A stretch of 25,330 bases of DNA. Origin: a virus. This document shows, in pieces, positions 3,109 to 25,161 of the stretch. The stretch lies in the IMG/VR virus record IMGVR_UViG_3300034102_000833, positions 1 to 25,330 of that record. The stretch is one strand, 5' to 3'. The notes under the pieces are model-generated. The model searched no databases. It worked only from the letters and a program-made list of their open reading frames with translations, and was not told the origin of the DNA. Every line of letters begins with the position of its first letter. The first letter of the stretch is position 1. A program made the position numbers and the translations under genes.

Positions 3109-3798
3109 ATGGCTACTTCAGGAACTACAACATTCGATCTAGACATAGATGATATTATTGAAGAAGCCTATGAACGTTGTGGTGTAAGAACTAACAGCGG
3201 ATACAATATAAAATCAGCAAGAAGAAGTTTAAACATTTTATTTTCTGAATGGGGAAATAGAGGTGTTCATCTTTGGAAAGTTGTTCTTAAAGAACAGTTA
3301 CTTACTGCTGGTACATCAACTTATAATACACCTCAAGATTGTAGTGACGTGTTAGAAGCTTATGTTTCAACTGCTCAAACAGTAACTGAAACAACTAACG
3401 ATATTTCATTAGATAAAATTGATAGATCTGCTTATGCAGCTCTTCCTAATAAAGGACAACAAGGACAACCTTCACAATACTATGTGGATCGTCAAACTAA
3501 TCCAAAAATCAGTTTATATTTAACACCAGATTGTGCTCAATACATTTATTTAAAGTATTATTATATTAGTAGAATTCAAGATGCTGGTGATTATAATGAT
3601 CAAGCTAATGTTCCTTATAGATTTTTACCATGTATGATATCTGGACTTGCATATTATCTAGGACAGAAATTTTCCCCAGATAGAGTGCAAGGATTAAAAC
3701 TAATATATGAGGATGAGTTACAAAGAGCTTTAGAAGAAGATTCTCAAAGAACAAGTTCTTTTATTTCACCTTATTCTTACTTTGGAGATGGAGTTTAA
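3109..3798 (+). CDS. Head-tail connector protein, P22 gp4-like
   Basis: This 229-residue protein resembles the P22 tail accessory factor gp4 group. The N-terminal IDDIIEEAYERCGVRT is followed by SARRSLNILFSEWGNRG, helices typical of the ring that sits under the portal and joins head to tail. The C-terminal half (PYRFLPCMISGLAYYLGQKF) also has the helical character of this family. It should form a dodecameric ring that closes the DNA exit channel after packaging. It heads a three-gene connector block, with stop and start overlapping at 3798. I assigned the family from remembered motifs, not from a search. Confidence 0.7.
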   Translation: MATSGTTTFDLDIDDIIEEAYERCGVRTNSGYNIKSARRSLNILFSEWGNRGVHLWKVVLKEQLLTAGTSTYNTPQDCSDVLEAYVSTAQTVTETTNDISLDKIDRSAYAALPNKGQQGQPSQYYVDRQTNPKISLYLTPDCAQYIYLKYYYISRIQDAGDYNDQANVPYRFLPCMISGLAYYLGQKFSPDRVQGLKLIYEDELQRALEEDSQRTSSFISPYSYFGDGV

Positions 3799-4148
3799 TG
3801 GCATTCGCAAGAGGTAAAAGATCGTTATCTATTTCTGATAGATCAGGAATGCAATTTCCATACGTGGAAATGAAGAGAGAGTGGAATGGTTCTTTTGTTC
3901 ATTATACTGAATACGAACCAAAACAACCTCAATTAGATCCAAGACATCATAAAGCAGATCCACAAGGACTTAAAAACGCTAGAGCAGATACTGTTCCTGG
4001 TGGAGGATGTTTAGTAGAATTAGATTTATATTTTTGGCCTGGACAATTTTTATCTAATGGAATGCAACCTGGAATAAGTGGAGATACTATTAATTCAAAA
4101 AGATCAGCTTACAGTGCAGTTGGAAATGTAACTATTATTATAACATGA
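3798..4148 (+). CDS. Connector-block protein of unknown function
   Basis: This 116-residue protein begins MAFARGKRSLSISDRSGMQF and contains EWNGSFVHYTEYEPKQPQ and a proline- and histidine-rich stretch (DPRHHKADPQGLKNARAD). I remember proteins of this pattern next to adaptor genes in marine phages, always without a function. It has no membrane segment and ends in beta-rich sequence. It overlaps both connector proteins (TAATG at its start, ATGA at its end), so a structural role at the head-tail joint is likely. That role is inferred from position only. Confidence 0.65.
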   Translation: MAFARGKRSLSISDRSGMQFPYVEMKREWNGSFVHYTEYEPKQPQLDPRHHKADPQGLKNARADTVPGGGCLVELDLYFWPGQFLSNGMQPGISGDTINSKRSAYSAVGNVTIIIT

Positions 4149-5291: not shown

Positions 5292-5735
5292 ATGGCGTTC
5301 GTTATTAACGATAGAGTCAAGGAAACTACAAGCACAACTGGAACAAGCACAGTTACATTAACTGGTGCACAGTTAGGCTTTCAAAGTTTTTCTGATGGCA
5401 TAGGAGCAGGTAATTCAACTTACTATACGATTGCTTTAGGCAATCAGTGGGAAGTGGGTATTGGCTCGTTAACGAACGCCACAACCTTTACAAGAGATTC
5501 AGTTATCTCTAGTTCAAACACAAGTAATTTAGTAAATTTTTCATCAGGAGTAAAAGATATATTTTGTGCACTACCAGCAACATATACTCCATCTCCTGTA
5601 ATGGAAGCACAAACATTTGTAAATACACACGCAACAACAATTAGTGAAGATCAAACAATTCAATCTGGAGTATTAGCAGGACCTGTTAGTATAACAGGAA
5701 CACAAACAGTAACAGGAAGTTTAGTAATAGTATAA
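5292..5735 (+). CDS. Conserved tail/fibre-associated protein
   Basis: This 147-residue protein carries a familiar phage pattern: NDRVKETTSTTGTSTVTLTG, then GFQSFSDGIGAGNSTYYTIA, QWEVGIGSL and RDSVISSSN...VNFSSGVKDIFCALPA. Many phages have this domain at the start of fibres or as a separate small tail protein. The last 40 residues (ATTISEDQTIQSGVLAGPVS and after) look like a beta-helical fibre shaft entry. A ribosome binding site AAGGTGG at 5281-5287 precedes the ATG. The role as fibre adaptor is inferred from family habit and position. Confidence 0.7.
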   Translation: MAFVINDRVKETTSTTGTSTVTLTGAQLGFQSFSDGIGAGNSTYYTIALGNQWEVGIGSLTNATTFTRDSVISSSNTSNLVNFSSGVKDIFCALPATYTPSPVMEAQTFVNTHATTISEDQTIQSGVLAGPVSITGTQTVTGSLVIV

Positions 5736-6457
5736 TGGGTGGAATTTTACAAGTTGATACAATTCAGAATAATAATGCGACAACGCTTATTACTCAAACG
5801 AATAGTACAACATTAACATTTGGAGTATCGGGACAGAATATAGTTATTCCAAGCGGTGTAACATTTAATACTGCTAGTGCTACAGTTAATTTACCTTCAT
5901 CAATAATTACAGGACAAACTGCAGTAACAACTCCTGCAACAGATGATGTATTATTATGTTATGATACTTCTGCAACAGCTTTAAGAAAAATAACATTTGC
6001 TAATTTTGGAAATGCTCCAGCTTTTATGGCATTTAATGATGGTAGCACTACTCAATCAATTTCAAATAATACAGGTACAGAAATAACTATTTTTAATACA
6101 GAACTATTTGATAGTAATAGTGCTTTCAATACTGCGACTGGTCGTTATACACCACAAGTGGCTGGTAAATATTTTTTTACTGCTTCATTATATTTTGGAA
6201 ATTCATTTGCTAATAATTTTAATATGTTTTTTATTGCTAAAAATAATGCAGCAGATGCTAATTCAACTGATGAAGTTTGTTTTATTACTAGACAATCAGC
6301 AGATGCACTAGTAACAAATGGAATTTTAGATATGAATGGAACAAGTGATTTTGTTTCTGTTATTTTTCTTCAACAATCAGGCGGAAGTAGAACTGTTGGT
6401 GGAGCTGGTGGAGCATCTCTTACATTTTTTGGTGGCTACAGATTAATAGGAGTATAA
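5735..6457 (+). CDS. Tail fibre with C1q-like head domain
   Basis: This 240-residue protein has two parts. Residues 1-60 are a fibre segment (LQVDTIQNNNATTLITQTNS, then a GVTFNTASATVN motif) shared with two other genes here. From about residue 92 a C1q/TNF-like jelly roll follows: PAFMAFNDG, NTELFDSNSAFNTATGRYTP, AGKYFFTASLYF, and GASLTFFGGYRLIGV at the end. C1q-like domains form compact trimers and act as receptor-binding heads in phage fibres, so this is a candidate host-recognition protein. It overlaps the preceding stop (TAATG). Confidence 0.8.
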   Translation: MGGILQVDTIQNNNATTLITQTNSTTLTFGVSGQNIVIPSGVTFNTASATVNLPSSIITGQTAVTTPATDDVLLCYDTSATALRKITFANFGNAPAFMAFNDGSTTQSISNNTGTEITIFNTELFDSNSAFNTATGRYTPQVAGKYFFTASLYFGNSFANNFNMFFIAKNNAADANSTDEVCFITRQSADALVTNGILDMNGTSDFVSVIFLQQSGGSRTVGGAGGASLTFFGGYRLIGV

Positions 6458-8222: not shown

Positions 8223-8692
8223 TGACCAGCACTTTAAGAGTAACCACGATTCAAAATTCAAACACTAGTAATATCATTACCCAGACCAATACTACAACAT
8301 TAACGATTGGGGCATCAGGGCAAACTATTGCATTTTCAGCACCTATAAATAATCCAACAGTTACCAACTACACAGAAAGTGTAGTTACGATAGGAACTGT
8401 TACTACATCTAATACTATATCTTTAGCAAGTGGTACAGTTCAAACAGCAACTCTAACAGCTTCAACAGCATGTACCTTTACAATGCCAACTGCAACTGCT
8501 GGTAAATCATTTGTACTTTTATTAAAACAAGCGGCAGCAACAGGAAATGGTACGGCAACATTTACAAGTGTTAAATTTCCAGCATCAGGTGCACCAACAA
8601 TTACAGCAACTGCTGGTAAAATGGATATTTTAACTTTTGTAGCAGATGGTACTAATTGGTACGGATCTTATACACAAGGTTATACTCCATAA
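8222..8692 (+). CDS. Short tail fibre protein
   Basis: This 156-residue, threonine-rich beta protein begins LRVTTIQNSNTSNIITQTNT and TLTIGASGQTI, nearly the same as the start of the 5735-6457 fibre. The rest is a beta domain (SGTVQTATLTASTACTFTMP, GKSFVLLLKQAAATGNG, FVADGTNWYGSYTQGYTP) that often ends marine phage fibres. It has the common stem but a different, smaller head. It overlaps both neighbours by one base. It is likely one of several trimeric fibres on the tail. Confidence 0.7.
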   Translation: MTSTLRVTTIQNSNTSNIITQTNTTTLTIGASGQTIAFSAPINNPTVTNYTESVVTIGTVTTSNTISLASGTVQTATLTASTACTFTMPTATAGKSFVLLLKQAAATGNGTATFTSVKFPASGAPTITATAGKMDILTFVADGTNWYGSYTQGYTP

Positions 8693-9519
8693 TGTTTGCG
8701 TCAAAAAATTCATTTTTTACAGGATTAACAATACCTATTCGATATTTAGTAGTTGCAGGTGGAGGAGGAGGCGGTGTTGCTCATGCGGGTGGTGGAGGTG
8801 CGGGAGGATTTAGAACTGCATCAGGGTTTACAGTATTTAGAGGAGTATCTCTTACAGTTACAGTAGGTGGTGCTGGTGCTGCTGCTACTAGCAGGGCTGC
8901 TAACGGTTCAAATGGAGGTGATTCAGTATTTTCTACAATAACTTCTACTGGTGGTGGTGGAGGTGGAACTGAATATAAAGCTGGTAGTATTGGGGGTAGT
9001 GGTGGTGGTGGCGCAACTCTTGCATCTGGTGCAGCGGGAACTTCTGGGCAAGGTAATAGTGGCGGAAATTCTACTACTACATTTGCTGGCGGAGGTGGAG
9101 GTGGAGCAAGTGCAGCGGGATCAGCTACATCACCTACATCAGCAGGTGATGGGGGAAATGGTTTACCATCTAACATTTTTGCTCCTCCTGGTTTTTCATT
9201 TAATTATGCAGGGGGTGGTGGTGGAGGTTGTTTTGGAAATTTTAATGGTGTAGTCACGAGAGGACTTGGCGGTTCTGGTGGTGGTGGAGATGGTAATTTT
9301 GGAAATAATAATGGAAGTGCAGGAGATACTAATACTGGCGGTGGTGGAGGGGGTGGAGGATTTGGAGATGAGACTGCTTATGCAGGGGGTTCTGGAATTG
9401 TAATTTTAAGTTACCCAAACTCTTTCCCTGATGCAACTACAACTGGATCACCAGGATTTTTTAACTTAAGTGGATTTAAAATTTATAGATTTTTAGGATC
9501 AGGTACTATTACTTTTTAA
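8692..9519 (+). CDS. Polyglycine-rich tail adhesin
   Basis: I start at the ATG at 8692, which overlaps the previous stop (TAATG). An in-frame ATG at 8656 would run 37 bases into the previous gene. The 275-residue product opens IRYLVVAGGGGGG and has about eight runs of four to seven glycines, separated by short polar loops. It closes with SGIVILSYPN and GFKIYRFLGSGTITF. This layout is a known glycine-rich phage domain; in T4-like adhesins, such repeats fold as packed polyglycine-II helices that expose variable loops for receptor binding. That fold is inferred here. A second gene of this type lies at 12034-13008. Confidence 0.75.
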   Translation: MFASKNSFFTGLTIPIRYLVVAGGGGGGVAHAGGGGAGGFRTASGFTVFRGVSLTVTVGGAGAAATSRAANGSNGGDSVFSTITSTGGGGGGTEYKAGSIGGSGGGGATLASGAAGTSGQGNSGGNSTTTFAGGGGGGASAAGSATSPTSAGDGGNGLPSNIFAPPGFSFNYAGGGGGGCFGNFNGVVTRGLGGSGGGGDGNFGNNNGSAGDTNTGGGGGGGGFGDETAYAGGSGIVILSYPNSFPDATTTGSPGFFNLSGFKIYRFLGSGTITF

Positions 9520-9984: not shown

Positions 9985-10896
9985 ATGTTTTTTGGAGCAA
10001 CAGCCTTTGCAGAAGCACCTTTCTCATCAGAAGGCATTATAAATCAATCAGTTGAAGTCACAGGTCTTCAATTACAAATTAACGTCTCAACGGTTGCTAT
10101 ATCATTAGGTGTAGATGTTAATTTAACTACAAATTTATTACAAACTGAAGTTACAAGCGTAGTCATTACTGCAGACGCTAATGCAAATGTAACAACTAAT
10201 TTATTACAAACTGCTTTAGGTAATGAAACTATTACCACAGATCAAAATATTAATGTAACAGGTAATTTATTACAATTTGAAATTGATAGTGTTTCAATTA
10301 TTGCAGGAGCAAATGCCTTTATTGCTGCAGGTGCAGAACAAGAACTTCAAACTGCAATTAATAGTGTAACTATAGATATACCAGTTACAGTAACTTTAAC
10401 TGGTTCACAACTTAATACATTTTTAAATAGCGTAGATGCTCAAGCAGTAACTATTGCTACATTATCTACTAATTTAATTCAATCAAATGTTTCAAGTGTA
10501 GCTATTACAGCAGATGCTAATACAAACGTATCTACTAATTTAATTCAAACTGCATTAGGTAATGAAGCTATTAGTGCAGATGCTAATGTAAATTTAACAA
10601 CTAATTTATTACAAACTGCTTTAGGTAATGAGTCTGTAGTTGTTGATACCGATGTATTATTAACTACTAATTTAATACAATCTAATTCAGGTTCAGTAGT
10701 TATAGGTATTGGAGTTCCTGTAACAGGGGTTCAAATGCAAATGTCTACAAAAACACCTGTAGTCGTAGCATGGGCCGTGATCCCTACTAACGTAACTAAT
10801 GCTTGGGTAACCGTAAGTACTAATACAATTAATACTTGGGCAACTATAAGCACCAATACAACTAACACTTGGGCAGTGGTTGATATTGCAGCTTAA
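9985..10896 (+). CDS. Repeat-built fibre (solenoid) protein
   Basis: This 303-residue protein consists almost wholly of repeats. After MFFGATAFAEAPFSSEG, about ten units of roughly 22 residues follow the pattern [V/I]..[T/S].[A/N].. N[V/L]TTNLLQTALGNE, alternating strand and turn. The C-terminus switches to an 11-residue unit starting with Trp (WVTVSTNTINT, WATISTNTTNT), ending WAVVDIAA. Such regular valine/threonine/asparagine repeats suggest a beta solenoid or fibre shaft. There are few charges and no cysteine. I recall similar repeat proteins in marine phages, without a function. AGGA and an AT-rich leader precede the ATG. It is the first gene after the 82-base gap. Confidence 0.75.
   Translation: MFFGATAFAEAPFSSEGIINQSVEVTGLQLQINVSTVAISLGVDVNLTTNLLQTEVTSVVITADANANVTTNLLQTALGNETITTDQNINVTGNLLQFEIDSVSIIAGANAFIAAGAEQELQTAINSVTIDIPVTVTLTGSQLNTFLNSVDAQAVTIATLSTNLIQSNVSSVAITADANTNVSTNLIQTALGNEAISADANVNLTTNLLQTALGNESVVVDTDVLLTTNLIQSNSGSVVIGIGVPVTGVQMQMSTKTPVVVAWAVIPTNVTNAWVTVSTNTINTWATISTNTTNTWAVVDIAA
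10190..10631 (+). repeat. 37-bp exact direct repeat within the solenoid gene
   Basis: The same 37 bases occur at 10190-10226 and 10595-10631, starting TAACAACTAATTTATTACAA and continuing to GGTAATGA. The distance of 405 bases is a multiple of three, so both copies are read in the same frame and encode TTNLLQTALGNE. A related but diverged copy lies between them near 10530-10565. Recombination between the copies would delete whole repeat units in frame. Confidence 0.85.
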
Positions 10897-10917: not shown

Positions 10918-12027
10918 ATGGCATCATCCTATTCTACCGATCTTAAACTTGAATTAATGGTTACTGGCGAAAACGCTGGTACATGGGGAGATAAAACCAA
11001 TACTAATTTAAATTTATTACAACAAGCTATTGCTGGTTTTGAATCTATTACATTAACTTCTACGAATACTACATTATCCATGACTAATGCTGCTATTTCT
11101 GATGCTAGAAATGCAGTTTTAAAATTTACAGGAGCTATTACAGCAAACTGTACAATATTTGTTGCATCGGGTATTGAAAAAACTTATATTTTAGAAAATG
11201 GTACTACAGGAAACTTTACTGTTGCTTTAAATCAAGTAGGTGGAGCTTCAGCTATATTTTCAGGAACAGATAAATCATCAAAATTAGTTTATTTAAATGG
11301 TACTGACGTTGTAGATTTAGGATTAGTTAATCTAACAGGAACACAAACCTTAACAAATAAAACATATTCTTCAGCTATAATATCTTTAGGTGCATCTATG
11401 GATACTAATGGTTTTAATATTTCATTTGATAATGCAACTGGAATAGATGATGATTCAGGTAATCAACAAATTATATTTAATAAAACCGCATCAGCAGTAA
11501 ATGAATTAACAATTGCAAATGCTGCAACAGGAAATTTTCCAAATATATCTGCAACAGGAAGTGATGCAAATATTGGTATTAATTTAACTCCTAAAGGTGT
11601 TGGAGAAATTACATTTAATGGTACGGGTAAAATTCAACAAGTTTTAGAAAAAGTAACTGTAACTAATACTGCAACTACAGGAACTGTTACTTACGATCTT
11701 TTAGAGCAAGCAGTGTTATATCATACAGGAAATGCTTCAGGACAATTTACACTTAATTTTAGAGGAAGTAATTCTACTGCATTAAATACTATGGTTGCTG
11801 CTGGAGAATCTGCAACAGCTGCTTTTTTAAATACCAATGCCACTACTGCTTATTATACAACTTTTGTGACAATTGACGGAACTTCAACTAATGTTTCAAC
11901 AAAATGGCAGGGAGGTTCGACTCCTACTTCTGGAAATTCATTATCTATTGATGCTTATAATTTTACAATTATTAAAACAGCAGCATCAACTTACACAGTA
12001 TTAGCAGCTCAATCACAATTTAAGTAA
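10918..12027 (+). CDS. Tail fibre protein, marine podovirus type
   Basis: This 369-residue protein begins MASSYSTDLKLELMVTGENA followed by GTWGDKTNTNLNLLQQAIAG, a start I know from many marine phage fibres; it likely attaches the fibre to the tail. The middle contains TGTQTLTNKTYSSA and FDNATGIDDDSGNQQIIFNK, beta-helical shaft segments. IGINLTPKGVGEITFNG follows, then a C-terminal beta domain (LLEQAVLYHTGNASGQFTLN to SFTVLAAQ-like end). It should form a trimer. It probably has its own promoter at 10880-10908. Receptor unknown. Confidence 0.8.
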   Translation: MASSYSTDLKLELMVTGENAGTWGDKTNTNLNLLQQAIAGFESITLTSTNTTLSMTNAAISDARNAVLKFTGAITANCTIFVASGIEKTYILENGTTGNFTVALNQVGGASAIFSGTDKSSKLVYLNGTDVVDLGLVNLTGTQTLTNKTYSSAIISLGASMDTNGFNISFDNATGIDDDSGNQQIIFNKTASAVNELTIANAATGNFPNISATGSDANIGINLTPKGVGEITFNGTGKIQQVLEKVTVTNTATTGTVTYDLLEQAVLYHTGNASGQFTLNFRGSNSTALNTMVAAGESATAAFLNTNATTAYYTTFVTIDGTSTNVSTKWQGGSTPTSGNSLSIDAYNFTIIKTAASTYTVLAAQSQFK

Positions 12028-12033
12028 TTTATC

Positions 12034-13008
12034 ATGCCTGTAATTACTACTTTTGGAGGAATGTCCGCAAGGGGTTTTGGTTTTGGAAGTGTAAGTAAAA
12101 TTATTGCTACAGGAGGTACAATAACCACTCAAACTATAGATGGTGTTATTTACAAAGTTCATACATTTACATCAAGTGGTAATTTTGTAATTCAAAATCC
12201 TGGTAAAAGTAAAACTGTAGAAACTTTTTTATGGGGTGGTGGAGGTGGAATCGGAGGATTTACACCGCCCGAAGGTATATCTCCTGGAAGAAATGGGGGT
12301 GGAGGTGGTGGATCAGCTTATGCTAGAAATTTAGGATTAGGTATAAGTACAGAAACTTTAAGTGTTTGTGTAGGAGGAGCTGGAGGAAGAGGACAGGATG
12401 ATCCAGGAGCAGGAGGATCAGGTATCACTATTTCTGGAACAAATTATTATTTTGGAGGAGCTGGGATAAAAGGAACTGTTCCCTTTTCATATTACGGTGG
12501 AGGCGGAGGAGGAGCTTCCGCTATCATTAGAGGTACAACAGGATTAATAGTAGCTGCTGGAGCTGGAGGAGGTGGAGGAAGTGAACGTGTATCTCCTGCA
12601 GGAAATGGTGGTGGAGGTAATTTAAATGGAGATAATGGAAGTGGTGGAACTGTAGGTGGAGTAGCAGGAGCTTCTGCAAACACCAATGGTTTAAACGGTG
12701 CTCCAGGCCCTCATTCTACAGGAGGAGGCGGTGCTGGAGGAGTAAATGGTGGTGGAGGTGGAGGATCTCCAGGAGGAGATTTTACAGGAGCGGCAGGAGG
12801 AGGTGGAGGAACATCTACTGCTGGAACAGGCACAGGAACTAATGTCGTAAATGGTTCAACTGCAGATGGTGGAACTGCAGGAAATGATGGCTATACATCT
12901 TACAATAATGCTAATTATGGAAGAGGTGGAGGAGGTGGATATTTTCCAACTCATATAAATGCAAATCCAGGACTTGTTGTAATACGTTATCCAATAGGAA
13001 CAGTTTAA
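12034..13008 (+). CDS. Second polyglycine-rich tail adhesin
   Basis: This 324-residue protein begins with a short beta segment (ATGGTITTQTIDGVIYKVHT, FTSSGNFVI). It then has about ten glycine runs of four to seven residues from LWGGGGGIGGF at residue 67 to RGGGGGYF near 300, and ends PGLVVIRYPIGTV. The loops between glycine runs differ fully from those of the first polyglycine protein, while strand motifs (xVVIRYP versus IVILSYP) match. This is what a shared scaffold with different receptor-contacting loops would look like. It lies directly before the large nozzle protein. Confidence 0.75.
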   Translation: MPVITTFGGMSARGFGFGSVSKIIATGGTITTQTIDGVIYKVHTFTSSGNFVIQNPGKSKTVETFLWGGGGGIGGFTPPEGISPGRNGGGGGGSAYARNLGLGISTETLSVCVGGAGGRGQDDPGAGGSGITISGTNYYFGGAGIKGTVPFSYYGGGGGGASAIIRGTTGLIVAAGAGGGGGSERVSPAGNGGGGNLNGDNGSGGTVGGVAGASANTNGLNGAPGPHSTGGGGAGGVNGGGGGGSPGGDFTGAAGGGGGTSTAGTGTGTNVVNGSTADGGTAGNDGYTSYNNANYGRGGGGGYFPTHINANPGLVVIRYPIGTV

Positions 13009-13009
13009 T

Positions 13010-15202
13010 ATGCCACTTAAAAAAATACCCTTACCTCCAGGTTTTGATAAAAATGATACAGCTTCTCAAGCAGAAGGACGCTGGATAGACGGAGATAATG
13101 TTCGTTTTCAATATGGTTCACCTGAAAAAATAGGAGGATGGAGTCAGATTAGCCCTAGTATTTTAGTAGGAGCAGGTAGAGATATACACTCTTGGTTTGA
13201 TTTAACAGGTAGACGTTATGTTGTAATAGGTACAAATAAAGTTTTATATGTTCTTTTTGGTGAAGAACTTTATGATATTACTCCACTCAAAACAGCTTTA
13301 ACAGGATGTACTTACACCTCTACAACAGGATCTACAACTGTAACTATTAATAAAACTTCACATAATTTTGAAGTTGGAGATTTACTTTTATTTTCATCAG
13401 TAACAACACCAGGACCAACTACAACAAGTTTTACAACAGCTGATTTTGAAACAAATACTTTTCAAGTTATTTCTGTTCTTAACGCAAATACATTTACAGT
13501 TACAATGCCTGTAGCGGAATCAGGTACAGGAGTTACTGCGGGTGGAACAATTACTACAAATCCTTATGAAACAGTGGGGCCTATTGGTTCAACTTTTGGT
13601 TTTGGATATGGTACAGGATATTATGGTGGAACAATACCTACATCTGTAATTACATCATTGGATGGAGATATTAGTAATACTACAACAACTATTACTGTTG
13701 TTTCTACAACAGGGTTTCCAACTCCACCTCCAAATGGAAGAATAGATATTGGAACAGAATTAATTAACTATACAGGTAAAACTTCAACAACATTTACGAG
13801 TTGTATTAGAGGTGTGGACGGCTCTACAGCTGCATCACATTTAAGTGGTGTGGTTGTATCAAATGCTACTGATTGGACTGATTGGGGAGAACAATCTAAT
13901 ACTAATGCCGTAACTTTAGATGCAGGATCATGGTCATTGGATAACTTTGGAGAATTATTAATAGCAACAATTAAAAATGGAAAAACTTTTTCATGGGATC
14001 CTAACGCAGGTTCTGGTGTTACTACACGTGCAATAATATTAGCAGGTAATCCTACATCAACTGTTTTAACAAGAGTGTCTGATCGAGACAGACATTTAAT
14101 TCATTTTGGTACTGAAACTGCAATTGGAAGTCCAGCATCTCAAGATCCTATGTTTATTCGTTTCTCGGACCAAGAAGATATTGAAGTGTATGACCCAACA
14201 TCAACTAATACAGCGGGTACGTTTAGATTAGATAATGGTAGTAAAATTGTAGCAGCAGTAAAAGGTAAAGATTATATGTTAGTTCTTACAGATGAAGCAG
14301 CTTATACTATGCAGTTTGTTGGACCTCCTTTTACATTTAGTATTAGACAGGTTGGATCTAATTGTGGATGTATTGGTCAGCATGCAGCAGTCTTCGTAGA
14401 CGGAGCTGTGTATTGGATGGGAGATTCTGGAAACTTCTTTGTATTTGATGGAACAGTTAAAACATTACCATCTACAGTTGAAGATTTTGTATTTACTACA
14501 CAAGGAGATAGCTTAGGTCTTAACTTTACAAATGGTGAATTAGTATTTGCAGGACATAATAGTTTATTTACAGAAATAAGTTGGTTTTATCCACAAGCTT
14601 CAGCTACACAAATAAATAGAGTAGTTACATATAATTATGAATTACAATCTTGGGCAACAGGATCATTGTCAAGAACAACTTATGAAGATTCTCATGTATT
14701 AGAAAACCCAACAGCAACTAAATACATAGACACTTTAATTCCTAATGTACCTACAATTAATGGTGTGACTGAAAGTGGTAGTTATGTATTTGAACACGAA
14801 GTAGGAGTTAATGAAGTTATATATACTACAAGTACACTTACAACAAATATAGCAATATCGGCATTTGTAAAATCAGGAGACTTTGATTTAGATATTGATG
14901 GAGATGGAGAATACTTTATTAAGATAAGAAGATTTATTCCAGACTTTAAATATTTAGATGGTAATACTAAAGTAACATTATTCTTTAAAGCTTATCCAGC
15001 AGATACAACATCTGCACAAGGAGAAACAACGGTTGGACCCTTTACAGTAACTTCAACAACAGATAAGATAGATACCCGTGCAAGAGGAAGACTTGCCGCA
15101 ATTAAAATAGAAAACGATGCACTTGACGACAACTGGCGTTATGGGATATTTAGAGTAGATATTCAACCAGACGGTAGAGGTGGAAGTGCTCCACAAACAT
15201 AA
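13010..15202 (+). CDS. Tail nozzle / DNA-stabilising protein, P22 gp10-like
   Basis: This 730-residue protein opens PLPPGFDKNDTASQAEGRWI and DGDNVRFQYGSPEKIGGWS, the typical start of the P22 gp10-like packaged-DNA stabilisation family. Later parts fit a beta-propeller: DNFGELLIATIKNGKTFSWD, RDRHLIHFGT, FIRFSDQEDIEVY, CIGQHAAVFVDGAVYWMGD and NRVVTYNYELQSWATGS. It should form a ring at the end of the adaptor, closing the channel and carrying fibres. It is longer than P22 gp10 (about 470 residues). Residues about 105-290 hold inserted beta domains, including DGDISNTTTTITVVSTTGFP and CIRGVDGSTAASHLSG. Confidence 0.8.
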   Translation: MPLKKIPLPPGFDKNDTASQAEGRWIDGDNVRFQYGSPEKIGGWSQISPSILVGAGRDIHSWFDLTGRRYVVIGTNKVLYVLFGEELYDITPLKTALTGCTYTSTTGSTTVTINKTSHNFEVGDLLLFSSVTTPGPTTTSFTTADFETNTFQVISVLNANTFTVTMPVAESGTGVTAGGTITTNPYETVGPIGSTFGFGYGTGYYGGTIPTSVITSLDGDISNTTTTITVVSTTGFPTPPPNGRIDIGTELINYTGKTSTTFTSCIRGVDGSTAASHLSGVVVSNATDWTDWGEQSNTNAVTLDAGSWSLDNFGELLIATIKNGKTFSWDPNAGSGVTTRAIILAGNPTSTVLTRVSDRDRHLIHFGTETAIGSPASQDPMFIRFSDQEDIEVYDPTSTNTAGTFRLDNGSKIVAAVKGKDYMLVLTDEAAYTMQFVGPPFTFSIRQVGSNCGCIGQHAAVFVDGAVYWMGDSGNFFVFDGTVKTLPSTVEDFVFTTQGDSLGLNFTNGELVFAGHNSLFTEISWFYPQASATQINRVVTYNYELQSWATGSLSRTTYEDSHVLENPTATKYIDTLIPNVPTINGVTESGSYVFEHEVGVNEVIYTTSTLTTNIAISAFVKSGDFDLDIDGDGEYFIKIRRFIPDFKYLDGNTKVTLFFKAYPADTTSAQGETTVGPFTVTSTTDKIDTRARGRLAAIKIENDALDDNWRYGIFRVDIQPDGRGGSAPQT

Positions 15203-15844: not shown

Positions 15845-16069
15845 ATGCCAAATAAAACAGTAATTATTAATGGAGAAGAAGTTCCAGTTATTCCAGCTAA
15901 AGCTGAAGAGATAATTAAAAATAAAGAAACGGGACAGATTTATTCTAGTCTTGAAGAATTTAAGGCAGATGTTGCAAATCCTAATACCCCAACTAAAGAA
16001 GAACATTTACAGCAAGATCTAAAAATAACAGTTGCATCTTTACAGGTTTTTGGTAAAACCAAGGAATGA
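15845..16069 (+). CDS. Small acidic protein, unknown
   Basis: This 74-residue protein begins MPNKTVIINGEEVPVIPAKA and has ETGQIYSSLEEFKADVANPN, then a helical end (EEHLQQDLKITVASLQVFGK). It is acidic to neutral, unlike the basic small proteins before it. Short proteins with GQ.Y.S.EE.KAD.ANP occur near virion genes of other marine phages as I remember, with no function. It overlaps the glycosyltransferase gene by four bases (ATGA), so the two are probably translated together. Confidence 0.65.
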   Translation: MPNKTVIINGEEVPVIPAKAEEIIKNKETGQIYSSLEEFKADVANPNTPTKEEHLQQDLKITVASLQVFGKTKE

Positions 16070-16980
16070 ATCCTTACGGCGGCACCGAAATTCAATTAGA
16101 GTATTTACACAAATACGTAAATAAAGACCTTCTTAATAAAGTTCAAATTACAACTTCTGTTCCAGAAAAAACTCCTATTGTTATAGATAAGCCAAATATT
16201 CTTTGGATACATAATAGTTATGATCAACCTAATCTTATGCCTTGGTTTCAAAATAAATTAAACCACGGTAAGTATGATTGGTATGTTTTTAATTCACATT
16301 GGACATATGAAAAGTATAGATACTTTTTTAGTCTACCAACGGAGTTATGTTTAGTTATCAAAAATGGTTTTGATGATGATCTAATAATAAAAACAGATTT
16401 CAAACCTAAAGATAAAATAAAATTAGTTTATACTTCAACACCATGGCGTGGACTAGATGTTCTATTAGATGCTATGGAACAAATTAAAACAGATAAAGTA
16501 GAGTTAGATGTTTACTCAAGTACAGAGATTTATGGAGATCATTTTAAAAATAATAATGATAAACAATTTACAGATTTATATGCTAAAGCAAAATCAATGA
16601 AGAATGTAAATTATAAAGGTTATTTAAATCATAAAGAATTAATGAAGATACTACATACTTATGATTGTTATGTTCATCCATCTACATTTGAAGAAACTTT
16701 TTGTGTAGCTGCCATGGAATCGTTAGCAGCGGGCCTTGTTGTAGTGACCACGGACCTCGGTGCTTTATATGAAACATGTGCTGAATTTCCAGTATATGTT
16801 CCTCATCAGAATAACAAAAAACTATTAGCTTCTCAATTTGCTGCAGTCATAGATAAGTTATCAGTAATGATGAATGACGTAGATGAAACAAAAATGAAAT
16901 TTCAACAACAATACTATAGACAATTTTATCATTGGAATGTAATAAAGACTTATTGGGAGAATTTTTTAAATGGCGTATAA
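16066..16980 (+). CDS. GT-B glycosyltransferase (GT4-like)
   Basis: This 304-residue protein has the two-domain GT-B layout of family GT4. The N-terminus NPYGGTEIQLEYL has the nucleotide-sugar glycine loop, and ILWIHNSY and DWYVFNSHWTYEKY follow. The C-terminal domain begins LVYTSTPWRGLDVLLDAMEQ and carries the E-x7-E motif: Glu210 and Glu218 in EETFCVAAME, then SLAAGLVVVTTDLGAL. It transfers a sugar from an activated donor to an unknown acceptor in the cytoplasm. It overlaps the GT-A gene after it by eleven bases. Between tail and ejection genes, virion or host-surface glycosylation is likely. Bases 16720-16765 are unusually G+C-rich. Confidence 0.85.
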   Translation: MNPYGGTEIQLEYLHKYVNKDLLNKVQITTSVPEKTPIVIDKPNILWIHNSYDQPNLMPWFQNKLNHGKYDWYVFNSHWTYEKYRYFFSLPTELCLVIKNGFDDDLIIKTDFKPKDKIKLVYTSTPWRGLDVLLDAMEQIKTDKVELDVYSSTEIYGDHFKNNNDKQFTDLYAKAKSMKNVNYKGYLNHKELMKILHTYDCYVHPSTFEETFCVAAMESLAAGLVVVTTDLGALYETCAEFPVYVPHQNNKKLLASQFAAVIDKLSVMMNDVDETKMKFQQQYYRQFYHWNVIKTYWENFLNGV

Positions 16981-24053: not shown

Positions 24054-24773
24054 ATGAAACTTATTAGACAAGATTCCAGCTTCATAATTACAGATTTTAA
24101 AAGAATAGATAAGTACCCTTATGTTCGTTACGCAAGGGACGATGACCACGGCCCACGGACCTATTTAGTAGGAGAAAAGAAAGTTCCTTCCGTTACAACC
24201 ATATTAGCCAAGACTGCTTCTAAAGATAAGAAAGCAGCCCTAGATGCTTGGAGAGAGCGAGTTGGATACCAAGAAGCACAGGCTATAACCGCCAAAGCGG
24301 CCTCTAGAGGCACGGAGATGCACTATGTCTTGGAGAACTACATTAATGGTATAGGGTACCTTAATTTGAGCTCAGACGGGGCACAATCACGGCTCATGGC
24401 ACACAAGATTATAGATAACCTAGAGCCTCTTAAAGAAGTCTACGGTAATGAAATAAATCTCCAATATGAAGCTAGATGGGCAGGTTCAACTGATCTTGTA
24501 GGTAAGTTTGATGGTAAGGATACTATTATAGATTTTAAACAATCTAATAAATTAAAGAGAGAAGACTGGATTGAAGATTACTTTTACCAAGTTGCAGCTT
24601 ACTCTCTAGCCCACAAAAAGAATTATGGACCTATAGAGCAAGGCATCATTGCCATCTGTACTAAGGACGGACAGTACCAAGAGTTCAAAATGGACAAAAT
24701 AAAATTATCAGAATATGAGGCAAAGTGGTTTGACAGAGTCGAAAAATTTTATACAATGTCAGTTAATGAATGA
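24054..24773 (+). CDS. PD-(D/E)XK nuclease, RecB/exonuclease-like
   Basis: This 239-residue protein has the order of motifs of RecB-like phage exonucleases. KKVPSVTTILAKT is near 42-54, RGTEMHYVLENY contains His90, GSTDLVGKFDG supplies Asp147, and TIIDFKQS gives Asp160 and Lys162 of the PD-(D/E)XK core. QVAAY (179-183) is the QxxxY motif. It should degrade DNA, probably in recombination or in recycling host DNA. The ATG is the only usable start. Its 5' half is much richer in G+C than the neighbours (30 of 60 bases at 24121-24180). The speD-like gene begins inside its last eight bases. Confidence 0.85.
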   Translation: MKLIRQDSSFIITDFKRIDKYPYVRYARDDDHGPRTYLVGEKKVPSVTTILAKTASKDKKAALDAWRERVGYQEAQAITAKAASRGTEMHYVLENYINGIGYLNLSSDGAQSRLMAHKIIDNLEPLKEVYGNEINLQYEARWAGSTDLVGKFDGKDTIIDFKQSNKLKREDWIEDYFYQVAAYSLAHKKNYGPIEQGIIAICTKDGQYQEFKMDKIKLSEYEAKWFDRVEKFYTMSVNE

Positions 24774-25161
24774 AAATAAATTATTAGTTCACAAGCATCT
24801 AATAGTAAGAGCAGAAGTATACCGTCCGCCAATGGACGAGGAGTTTCTTAGGCGTTGGTTAAGCGAATTCATAGAACAAATCGGAATGAAAGTAATGATG
24901 GGGCCTTATGTTAAATATTCTAACATGGTAGGCAACAGAGGAATTACTGGAGCAGCAATAATTGAAACATCACACATCGTAATGCATATCTGGGATGAAG
25001 TTCATCCAGCACTAATGCAATTTGATGTTTATAGTTGTGGAGAGTTTGATCCAGAAACTATTTGTAAAAAAATAGATAAAGATTTTACAACTCACAAAAT
25101 AGAATATAAATTCTTAGATAGAGAACACGATTTAAAAGAATTATCTAAATCCAATTCTTAA
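24766..25161 (+). CDS. speD: S-adenosylmethionine decarboxylase homologue (SpeD-like)
   Basis: I start at the ATG at 24766, eight bases inside the nuclease gene; an upstream in-frame ATG at 24715 would overlap 59 bases and adds no family sequence. The 131-residue product matches the small bacterial SpeD class. ITGAAIIETSHIVMHIWDE holds the pyruvoyl-forming Ser69 and His74, and FDVYSCGEFDP holds Cys91. SpeD cleaves itself before the serine and makes decarboxylated AdoMet for spermidine synthesis. Here Thr replaces the usual Glu before the serine. Phage SpeD genes are known. Because some SpeD relatives have changed substrate, activity is uncertain. Confidence 0.8.
   Translation: MNENKLLVHKHLIVRAEVYRPPMDEEFLRRWLSEFIEQIGMKVMMGPYVKYSNMVGNRGITGAAIIETSHIVMHIWDEVHPALMQFDVYSCGEFDPETICKKIDKDFTTHKIEYKFLDREHDLKELSKSNS

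Follow-up and report, generated by a model that had tools for sequence, protein, structure and literature searches.

In phage SU10, the trimeric short fiber is held by the nozzle, whose dock loop presents three tryptophans, Trp839, Trp847, and Trp857, in pseudo-threefold symmetry, each of them sitting against Ile24 of one fiber chain (PMC9509320). No case of pseudo-threefold Trp docking beyond SU10 was found in the open-licence PubMed Central literature, and the portions of the literature covered contained no description of fiber attachment in the phages considered here. We analyzed a 25,330-base virus record of IMG/VR, which was taken as a whole and is referred to below as the window. An ORF located on its plus strand (9985..10896), which was confirmed, encodes a 303-residue repeat protein. 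A cultured member of the same family is gp68 of Pelagibacter phage HTVC023P (QGZ17697.1), which is annotated as a hypothetical protein. As does the window protein, gp68 contains 22-residue repeats (z = 10.5 at lag 22), has tryptophans 11 residues apart (three of them), ends in VDIAA, and is encoded upstream from a tail protein gene. It differs by its size (226 residues), by the number of its units (about 8 versus 11), and by its N-terminal wording (LLGITAISQSPIASLG).

Periodicity analysis of residues 21-262 of the window protein revealed a period of 22 residues (z = 11.6 at lag 22 and 6.3 at lag 44), the largest z obtained over lags 2-59 in 1000 shuffles being 5.37. The same residues of four other window proteins gave z values of only -1.9 to 1.3 at lag 22. 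No 11-residue period was detected in this body region (z = -0.7 at lag 11). The body (residues 23-262; 10051..10770, plus strand) comprises eleven units of about 22 residues, the last one being partial. With boundaries placed by us, units 1 to 5 correspond to residues 23-44, 45-66, 67-88, 89-110, and 111-135, and units 6 to 11 to residues 136-157, 158-179, 180-201, 202-223, 224-245, and 246-262. The preliminary description, which proposed about ten 22-residue units followed by 11-residue Trp units, was therefore correct in its outline and required an adjustment to about eleven units, the fifth of which contains 25 residues. This odd unit (AFIAAGAEQELQTAINSVTIDIPVT; 10315..10389, plus strand) is unlike the others, its best paralog displaying just 41% identity at the DNA level.

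The gene contains six 70-nt copies with a spacing of 66 or 207 nt. The exact 37-bp repeat reported in the preliminary description is present (10190..10226 and 10595..10631, plus strand), the two copies being 405 bases (135 codons) apart and in frame, as had been stated. Homogenization of the paralogous units was considered and rejected since each window unit is closer to its orthologs (mean identity 0.85-0.96) than to its best paralog in the same gene (0.41-0.79), indicating that there was no recent turnover of units. The upper value was obtained for comparisons of units 2/3 with units 7/8, a hint of what may be an old block copy. The 37-bp repeat had also been proposed to offer a route to length change. 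This was not borne out, since the body has 262 residues in all ten genes compared, i.e. in the window and in nine close relatives, and only the number of Trp units varies in this set. The longest exact repeat in these genes ranges from 19 to 38 bp, and the closest relatives, proteins of 303 and 292 residues, differ by one 11-residue Trp unit.

The last 41 residues of the protein form a C-terminal ladder of tryptophans (10771..10893, plus strand), Trp263, Trp274, Trp285, and Trp296, which are separated by three intervals of exactly 11 residues and followed by a VVDIAA end. The preliminary description interpreted the 2:1 ratio of the two periods as a sign of one structural pitch, for example in a beta solenoid that narrows toward its tip. 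Comparison of the profiles of the 11-residue and 22-residue units did not support this interpretation, as 36% of 5000 column permutations provided an equally good match. The view of the 11-mer as half of a 22-mer was thus not supported, and the model of a relative presented below (L104) has no solenoid in the ladder.

Scans of viral contigs provided 61, 80 (kept of 102), and 68 loci on partly shared contigs. Loci of the second scan that repeated contigs of the first were left out, and 61 + 98 loci were taken. After exclusion of L052/L053, of incomplete ORFs, and of ORFs of less than 140 residues, 140 complete ORFs were kept, and 83 proteins remained following dereplication at 90%. Over 572 units, the consensus reads V-x-V-T-G-x-x-L-x-x-x-(L/V/I)-G-x-x-x-(I/V)-x-A-(N/D)-A-N. 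Lys, Arg, His, and Cys are almost absent from the 83 proteins (0.6, 0.3, 0.2, and 0.0 percent, respectively). Positions G4, T6, P12, and G17 of the N-terminal segment are invariant or 90% conserved among 59 aligned members and are present in the window protein. With a hand-made pattern, the odd type of unit was recognized in 60 of the 83 relatives, at an offset of 41, 106-110, 128-129, or 173 in 57 of them, indicating that this unit moves mostly by whole units. In the ladder, the spacing was 11 in 148 of the 151 intervals of the family, as determined by a script that counted Trp or Tyr and accepted intervals of 10 to 12 only. Three rungs were found in 44 relatives, two in 22, four in 12, six in 1 (L136, for which the count includes Tyr), one in 2 (L104 and L116, scored in this manner owing to a terminal Tyr, the alignment showing six and four Trp, respectively), and none in 2 (L056 and L061).

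Searching a phage collection with the window protein gave no match at E 0.001, HTVC023P gp68 included; the latter protein was reached by searches from relatives of the window protein. The other named members are proteins of 023Pt_psg01 (URG13121.1, 149 residues; z = 5.0 at lag 22) and DSL-LC04 (WJZ48131.1; z = 11.7). HTVC027P gp68 is a weaker counterpart, with 27.8% identity over 76% of L040. The named phages originate from seawater, or from a lake in the case of DSL-LC04. Three proteins, L056 (750-1907), L058, and L061, share the N-terminus and contain an enclosed domain, about 100 residues long, that is also present in cyanophage structural proteins.

Pfam, PHROGs, and NCBIfam contained no family for the window protein (E up to 1) or for the relatives scanned. 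The window protein had a single sub-cut-off match (16.3 bits versus 125) and no PHROG match. A Pfam scan of 59 members with a threshold of E 1 gave scattered matches to 49 families, with a best E of 0.00022 among the matches listed, and the best E of a sequence-profile search of the PDB was 0.31. The portions of the open-licence PubMed Central literature searched for comparable repeats or for solenoids in phage tails contained nothing on this protein, and the accessible part of PMC12753301 contained nothing on the repeat gene. Together, these results reveal a large and widespread family of tail-module repeat proteins that is not described in the literature searched. The family is ordinary as a phage structural repeat protein, and less so in its combination of a Trp ladder with a near-fixed pairing to a fiber gene.

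The partner gene, o10918 (10918..12027, plus strand), encodes a fiber-type protein whose first 45 residues are conserved and whose C-terminus is more variable. An o10918 homolog was the next ORF in 73 of the 76 dereplicated contigs with at least 700 nt downstream from the repeat gene, as is the case in the window. The exceptions were L041 and L046, in which no ORF of 100 residues started within 130 nt, and L116, in which an o5292-type gene was found instead. In a looser test accepting an o10918 match anywhere downstream, 74 of the 76 contigs were positive, L061 and L116 being the misses. The fiber ATG is located at a median distance of 20 nt past the stop codon, i.e. 23 nt past the last sense codon (76 loci). 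The pairing is kept in HTVC023P, HTVC027P, and 023Pt_psg01, and in DSL-LC04 the next gene matched the profile of the fiber N-terminus with an E of 9.9e-30 in a one-sequence search. The N-terminus of the o10918 protein (100-160 residues) recurs in annotated tail fiber/spike proteins of CRP-901, CRP-902, MinM2, Pag-Yong1, and 023Pt_psg01; in CRP-902 and Pag-Yong1, no ladder protein is encoded directly before it. The module can move, since the repeat gene of L104 and L116 is flanked by o4850-like and o5292-like genes and does not precede o10918.

The surroundings of the two genes also belong to the tail. A homolog of the protein encoded at 13010..15202 (plus strand) was present downstream in 51 of the 55 contigs with at least 2900 nt. 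This protein is a candidate nozzle of the P22 gp10 / SU10 gp17 type, according to the names of its relatives, which are annotated as phage stabilization protein, and to a weak alignment with SU10 gp17. The tail adaptor is encoded at 3109..3798 (plus strand; Pfam SU10_adaptor, E 4.8e-10), followed by o3798 (3798..4148, plus strand), the product of which ends, by eye, in about half a repeat (AVGNVTIIIT). Several tail-fiber-like ORFs are located upstream from the repeat gene. Additional observations in the window include a C1q-like match at 5735-6457 (residues 103-157 of 240, E 3.2e-05), a candidate trimeric fiber tip, and glycine-rich fiber-like proteins at 8656-9519 and 12034-13008 (Gly_rich_2, E 3.4e-21 for the first and a weak 0.31 for the second). 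A group 1 glycosyltransferase is encoded within the structural module (16066-16980), HTVC023P gp77 being annotated alike at a similar place, and a homolog of S-adenosylmethionine decarboxylase is encoded at 24715-25161 (Pfam AdoMet_dc, E 2.9e-17).

Conservation along the two proteins was estimated by the mean pairwise identity, taken over the shorter segment. In the group of proteins designated MFFGATAF (20 proteins, 190 pairs), the N-terminal 20 residues of the repeat protein reached 0.91, its body 0.48, and its ladder 0.80; identity of the fiber was 0.85 for residues 1-45, 0.65 for residues 46-130, and 0.45 beyond. The corresponding values in the HTVC023P group (38 proteins, 250 sampled pairs) were 0.61, 0.56, and 0.82 for the repeat protein and 0.89, 0.69, and 0.67 for the fiber. 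Thus, the conserved ladder of the repeat protein faces the conserved N-terminus of the fiber across the gene junction. This pattern would be expected of a docking pair, but gene linkage or expression signals could produce the same pattern.

Repeat number, which the preliminary description suggested comparing among related phages, varies in the wider family and is constant for the body among the nine close relatives. The length preceding the ladder is mainly 132, 196-201, 216-218, 262-264, 276-284, 325-327, or 347-348 residues, i.e. near whole units, and lengths found once (148, in a cut sequence, 231, 241, 295, 390, and 436 residues) are not all near whole units. In the MFFGATAF group, 18 of the 22 dereplicated members have a body of 262-264 residues, the exceptions being L027 (327), L030 (283), L031 (284), and L034 (198). 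Unit number clusters at 8 and 11. The possibility that it is always 2 modulo 3 (5, 8, 11, 14) was rejected since 9, 10, 12, and 15 occur. A weakly resolved tree of the fiber N-terminus (74 rows) implied 25 changes of unit number and 21 of ladder count. Of the 25 inferred unit changes, an average of 12.0 involved three units, versus 4.8 for a single unit and 5.9 for two, this preference for three units being derived from one tree of 131 columns with 28 of its 70 inner branches open, and the count including L163, whose cut 5' end creates a false change from 8 to 6. This record of repeat numbers offers a natural series for asking how the length of such a protein is constrained.

Modeling of the window protein with an alignment of 59 sequences gave no confident fold (pLDDT 42, pTM 0.24), the best VIA match of the model being the C-terminal domain of tapirin (Z 8.8). 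L104 was modeled for its most regular units, a choice that favors a solenoid, with four sequences in the alignment. In this model, long strands (about 13 residues) and short strands (4-5 residues) alternate, one pair per 22-residue unit, with a pLDDT of 70-80 per ten-residue block over residues 181-260 and of 55.9 overall. Foldseek searches with the L104 model gave a best E of 2.0 in the PDB, none below 1, and of 0.028 in a viral library. VIA alignment of the Foldseek candidates ranked first the receptor-binding domain of the Pam1 tailspike (7eea), a beta-helix, with a Z of 26.9 and 2.8 Å over 320 residues; the two structures align, although the comparison involves the model of a relative, belongs to a class favored by AlphaFold2, and has no counterpart in a sequence match. 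AlphaFold2 over-predicts beta-solenoids for repeat sequences (PMC11795689), and the solenoid is therefore treated as likely rather than established. The body is likely beta-rich and probably forms a beta-solenoid rod, the beta solenoid advanced in the preliminary description being plausible from the L104 model, but not confidently modeled in the window protein itself.

Resemblance of the L104 model to phage tailspike beta-helices, together with a location in the tail module, would suit a protein that is itself the receptor-binding fiber or spike, i.e. a trimeric beta-helix with the C-terminal Trp units as its tip. The dN/dS ratio, which is higher in the body (0.43) than in residues 1-20 (0.21; 45 pairs from ten genes), points in the same direction, but both ratios are well under 1. 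Moreover, conservation of the ladder (0.80-0.82) and variability of the body are the reverse of what is expected from a receptor-binding tip, and it is the downstream protein that has a C-terminus more variable than its N-terminus. We consider this possibility rather unlikely, if still deserving attention, and retain from the fiber-like protein of the preliminary description a repeat protein of the tail/fiber region, without the narrower C-terminal tip. A structural protein of the neck or of the head-tail joint, with no role in fiber attachment, would account for the fusion, in CRP-902, of a repeat array to an o3798-type domain beside the adaptor gene. The near-constant pairing with a fiber-type gene argues against such a protein, which appears unlikely.

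Two further explanations concern the repeats themselves. The ladder may form an alpha-helical coiled coil of the hendecad (11-residue) type that oligomerizes the protein, since AlphaFold2 drew it as a helix in L104 and a made-up ladder query weakly matched tape-measure proteins (best E 0.01). However, the helix is mostly under a pLDDT of 50, and the ladder is rich in Thr, Val, Asn, and Ser, position 6 being occupied by Pro in 31% of 147 units, which makes this explanation improbable. A secreted fiber subunit of the curli type (CsgA/B) would also be built from short repeats with two strands per unit, as found in the L104 model. CsgA contains a short beta-repeat of about 22 residues, a length shared by the window protein. 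Nine genomes of the HTVC023P type are reported to carry a curli secretion system, the curli genes adjoining CsgG, CsgF, and a kinase (PMC9599517). None of the latter three proteins was found among the 24 distinct window proteins scanned, and the neighbors of the repeat gene are tail genes. At E 1, Curlin_rpt (PF07012) matched none of four records (the window, G001, HTVC023P, and HTVC027P), whereas it matched 3 of 14 control genomes, E. coli included. A curli subunit is therefore very improbable.

Our best explanation, which is put forward tentatively, is that the protein may be a virion component acting as a tail strut in short-tailed phages of the HTVC023P type. The conserved N-terminal segment (MFFGATAFAEAPFSSEG..., residues 1-20; 9985..10044, plus strand) is the proposed anchor, which would fix the strut to the tail hub, and the 22-residue units would set its length. 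The ladder, the proposed fiber dock, would bind the conserved N-terminus of the fiber encoded at 10918..12027. Several observations argue against docking. The ladder count varies, as would not be expected of a strict three-fold socket, and the partner is displaced in a few contigs, the next gene being of the o5292 type in L116 and L104 and no close ORF of 100 residues being present in L041 and L046. In addition, CRP-902 and Pag-Yong1 have the fiber N-terminus with no ladder protein immediately preceding it, and a loose Trp row is also found in HTVC023P gp63. A more elaborate version, which we regard as doubtful, would place the fiber socket outside the nozzle, on an adjustable solenoid strut changing preferentially by three-unit steps, the Trp ladder acting as a symmetry adaptor between a single strut and the three chains of the fiber. 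Should the ladder be the dock, the possibility of exchanging fiber C-termini at a constant joint would be explained by one small protein, which would also mark the fiber gene in many uncultured phages.

Among described proteins, CRP-902 gp53 (WED25149.1; L213 11961-12887) resembles the window protein by a repeat array of comparable style, with three Trp at its end, and by its location in the same tail module. It differs by a period of 20 rather than 22 (z = 5.9 versus 0.8), by Trp residues 5 apart, and by fusion of the array to an o3798-type domain. In SU10, the dock loop of gp17 and the ladder have in common three spaced Trp, a short-tailed phage, and an adjoining fiber gene (gp16 in SU10). 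In contrast to the ladder, the dock loop has spacings of 8 and 10, is located inside the nozzle, and contains no repeats, and we claim no homology. The pattern W-x7-11-W-x7-11-W was sought in six-frame ORFs of at least 60 residues. The repeat protein was its sole occurrence in the window, as was gp17 in 30 kb of SU10, whereas HTVC023P contained it in gp68, in gp63 (a loose row), and in several short frames. Thus, the single Trp row of the window belongs to a separate protein, unlike that of SU10. In an alignment of five nozzles, the proteins of the window, HTVC023P, HTVC027P, and CRP-902 lacked the Trp839 segment and had no Trp at position 857, and position 847 was Trp in CRP-902 and Tyr in the other three. 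Absence of the dock loop from these nozzles is read from a weak alignment because gp17 shares very little sequence with the 13010 protein, their BLASTP comparison giving short stretches only (25 residues for the best, E 0.001). By analogy, a ladder with a modal count of three, encoded beside a fiber gene, would be a natural substitute for the SU10 dock loop and would perform, as a separate protein, the function of the three Trp of the nozzle.
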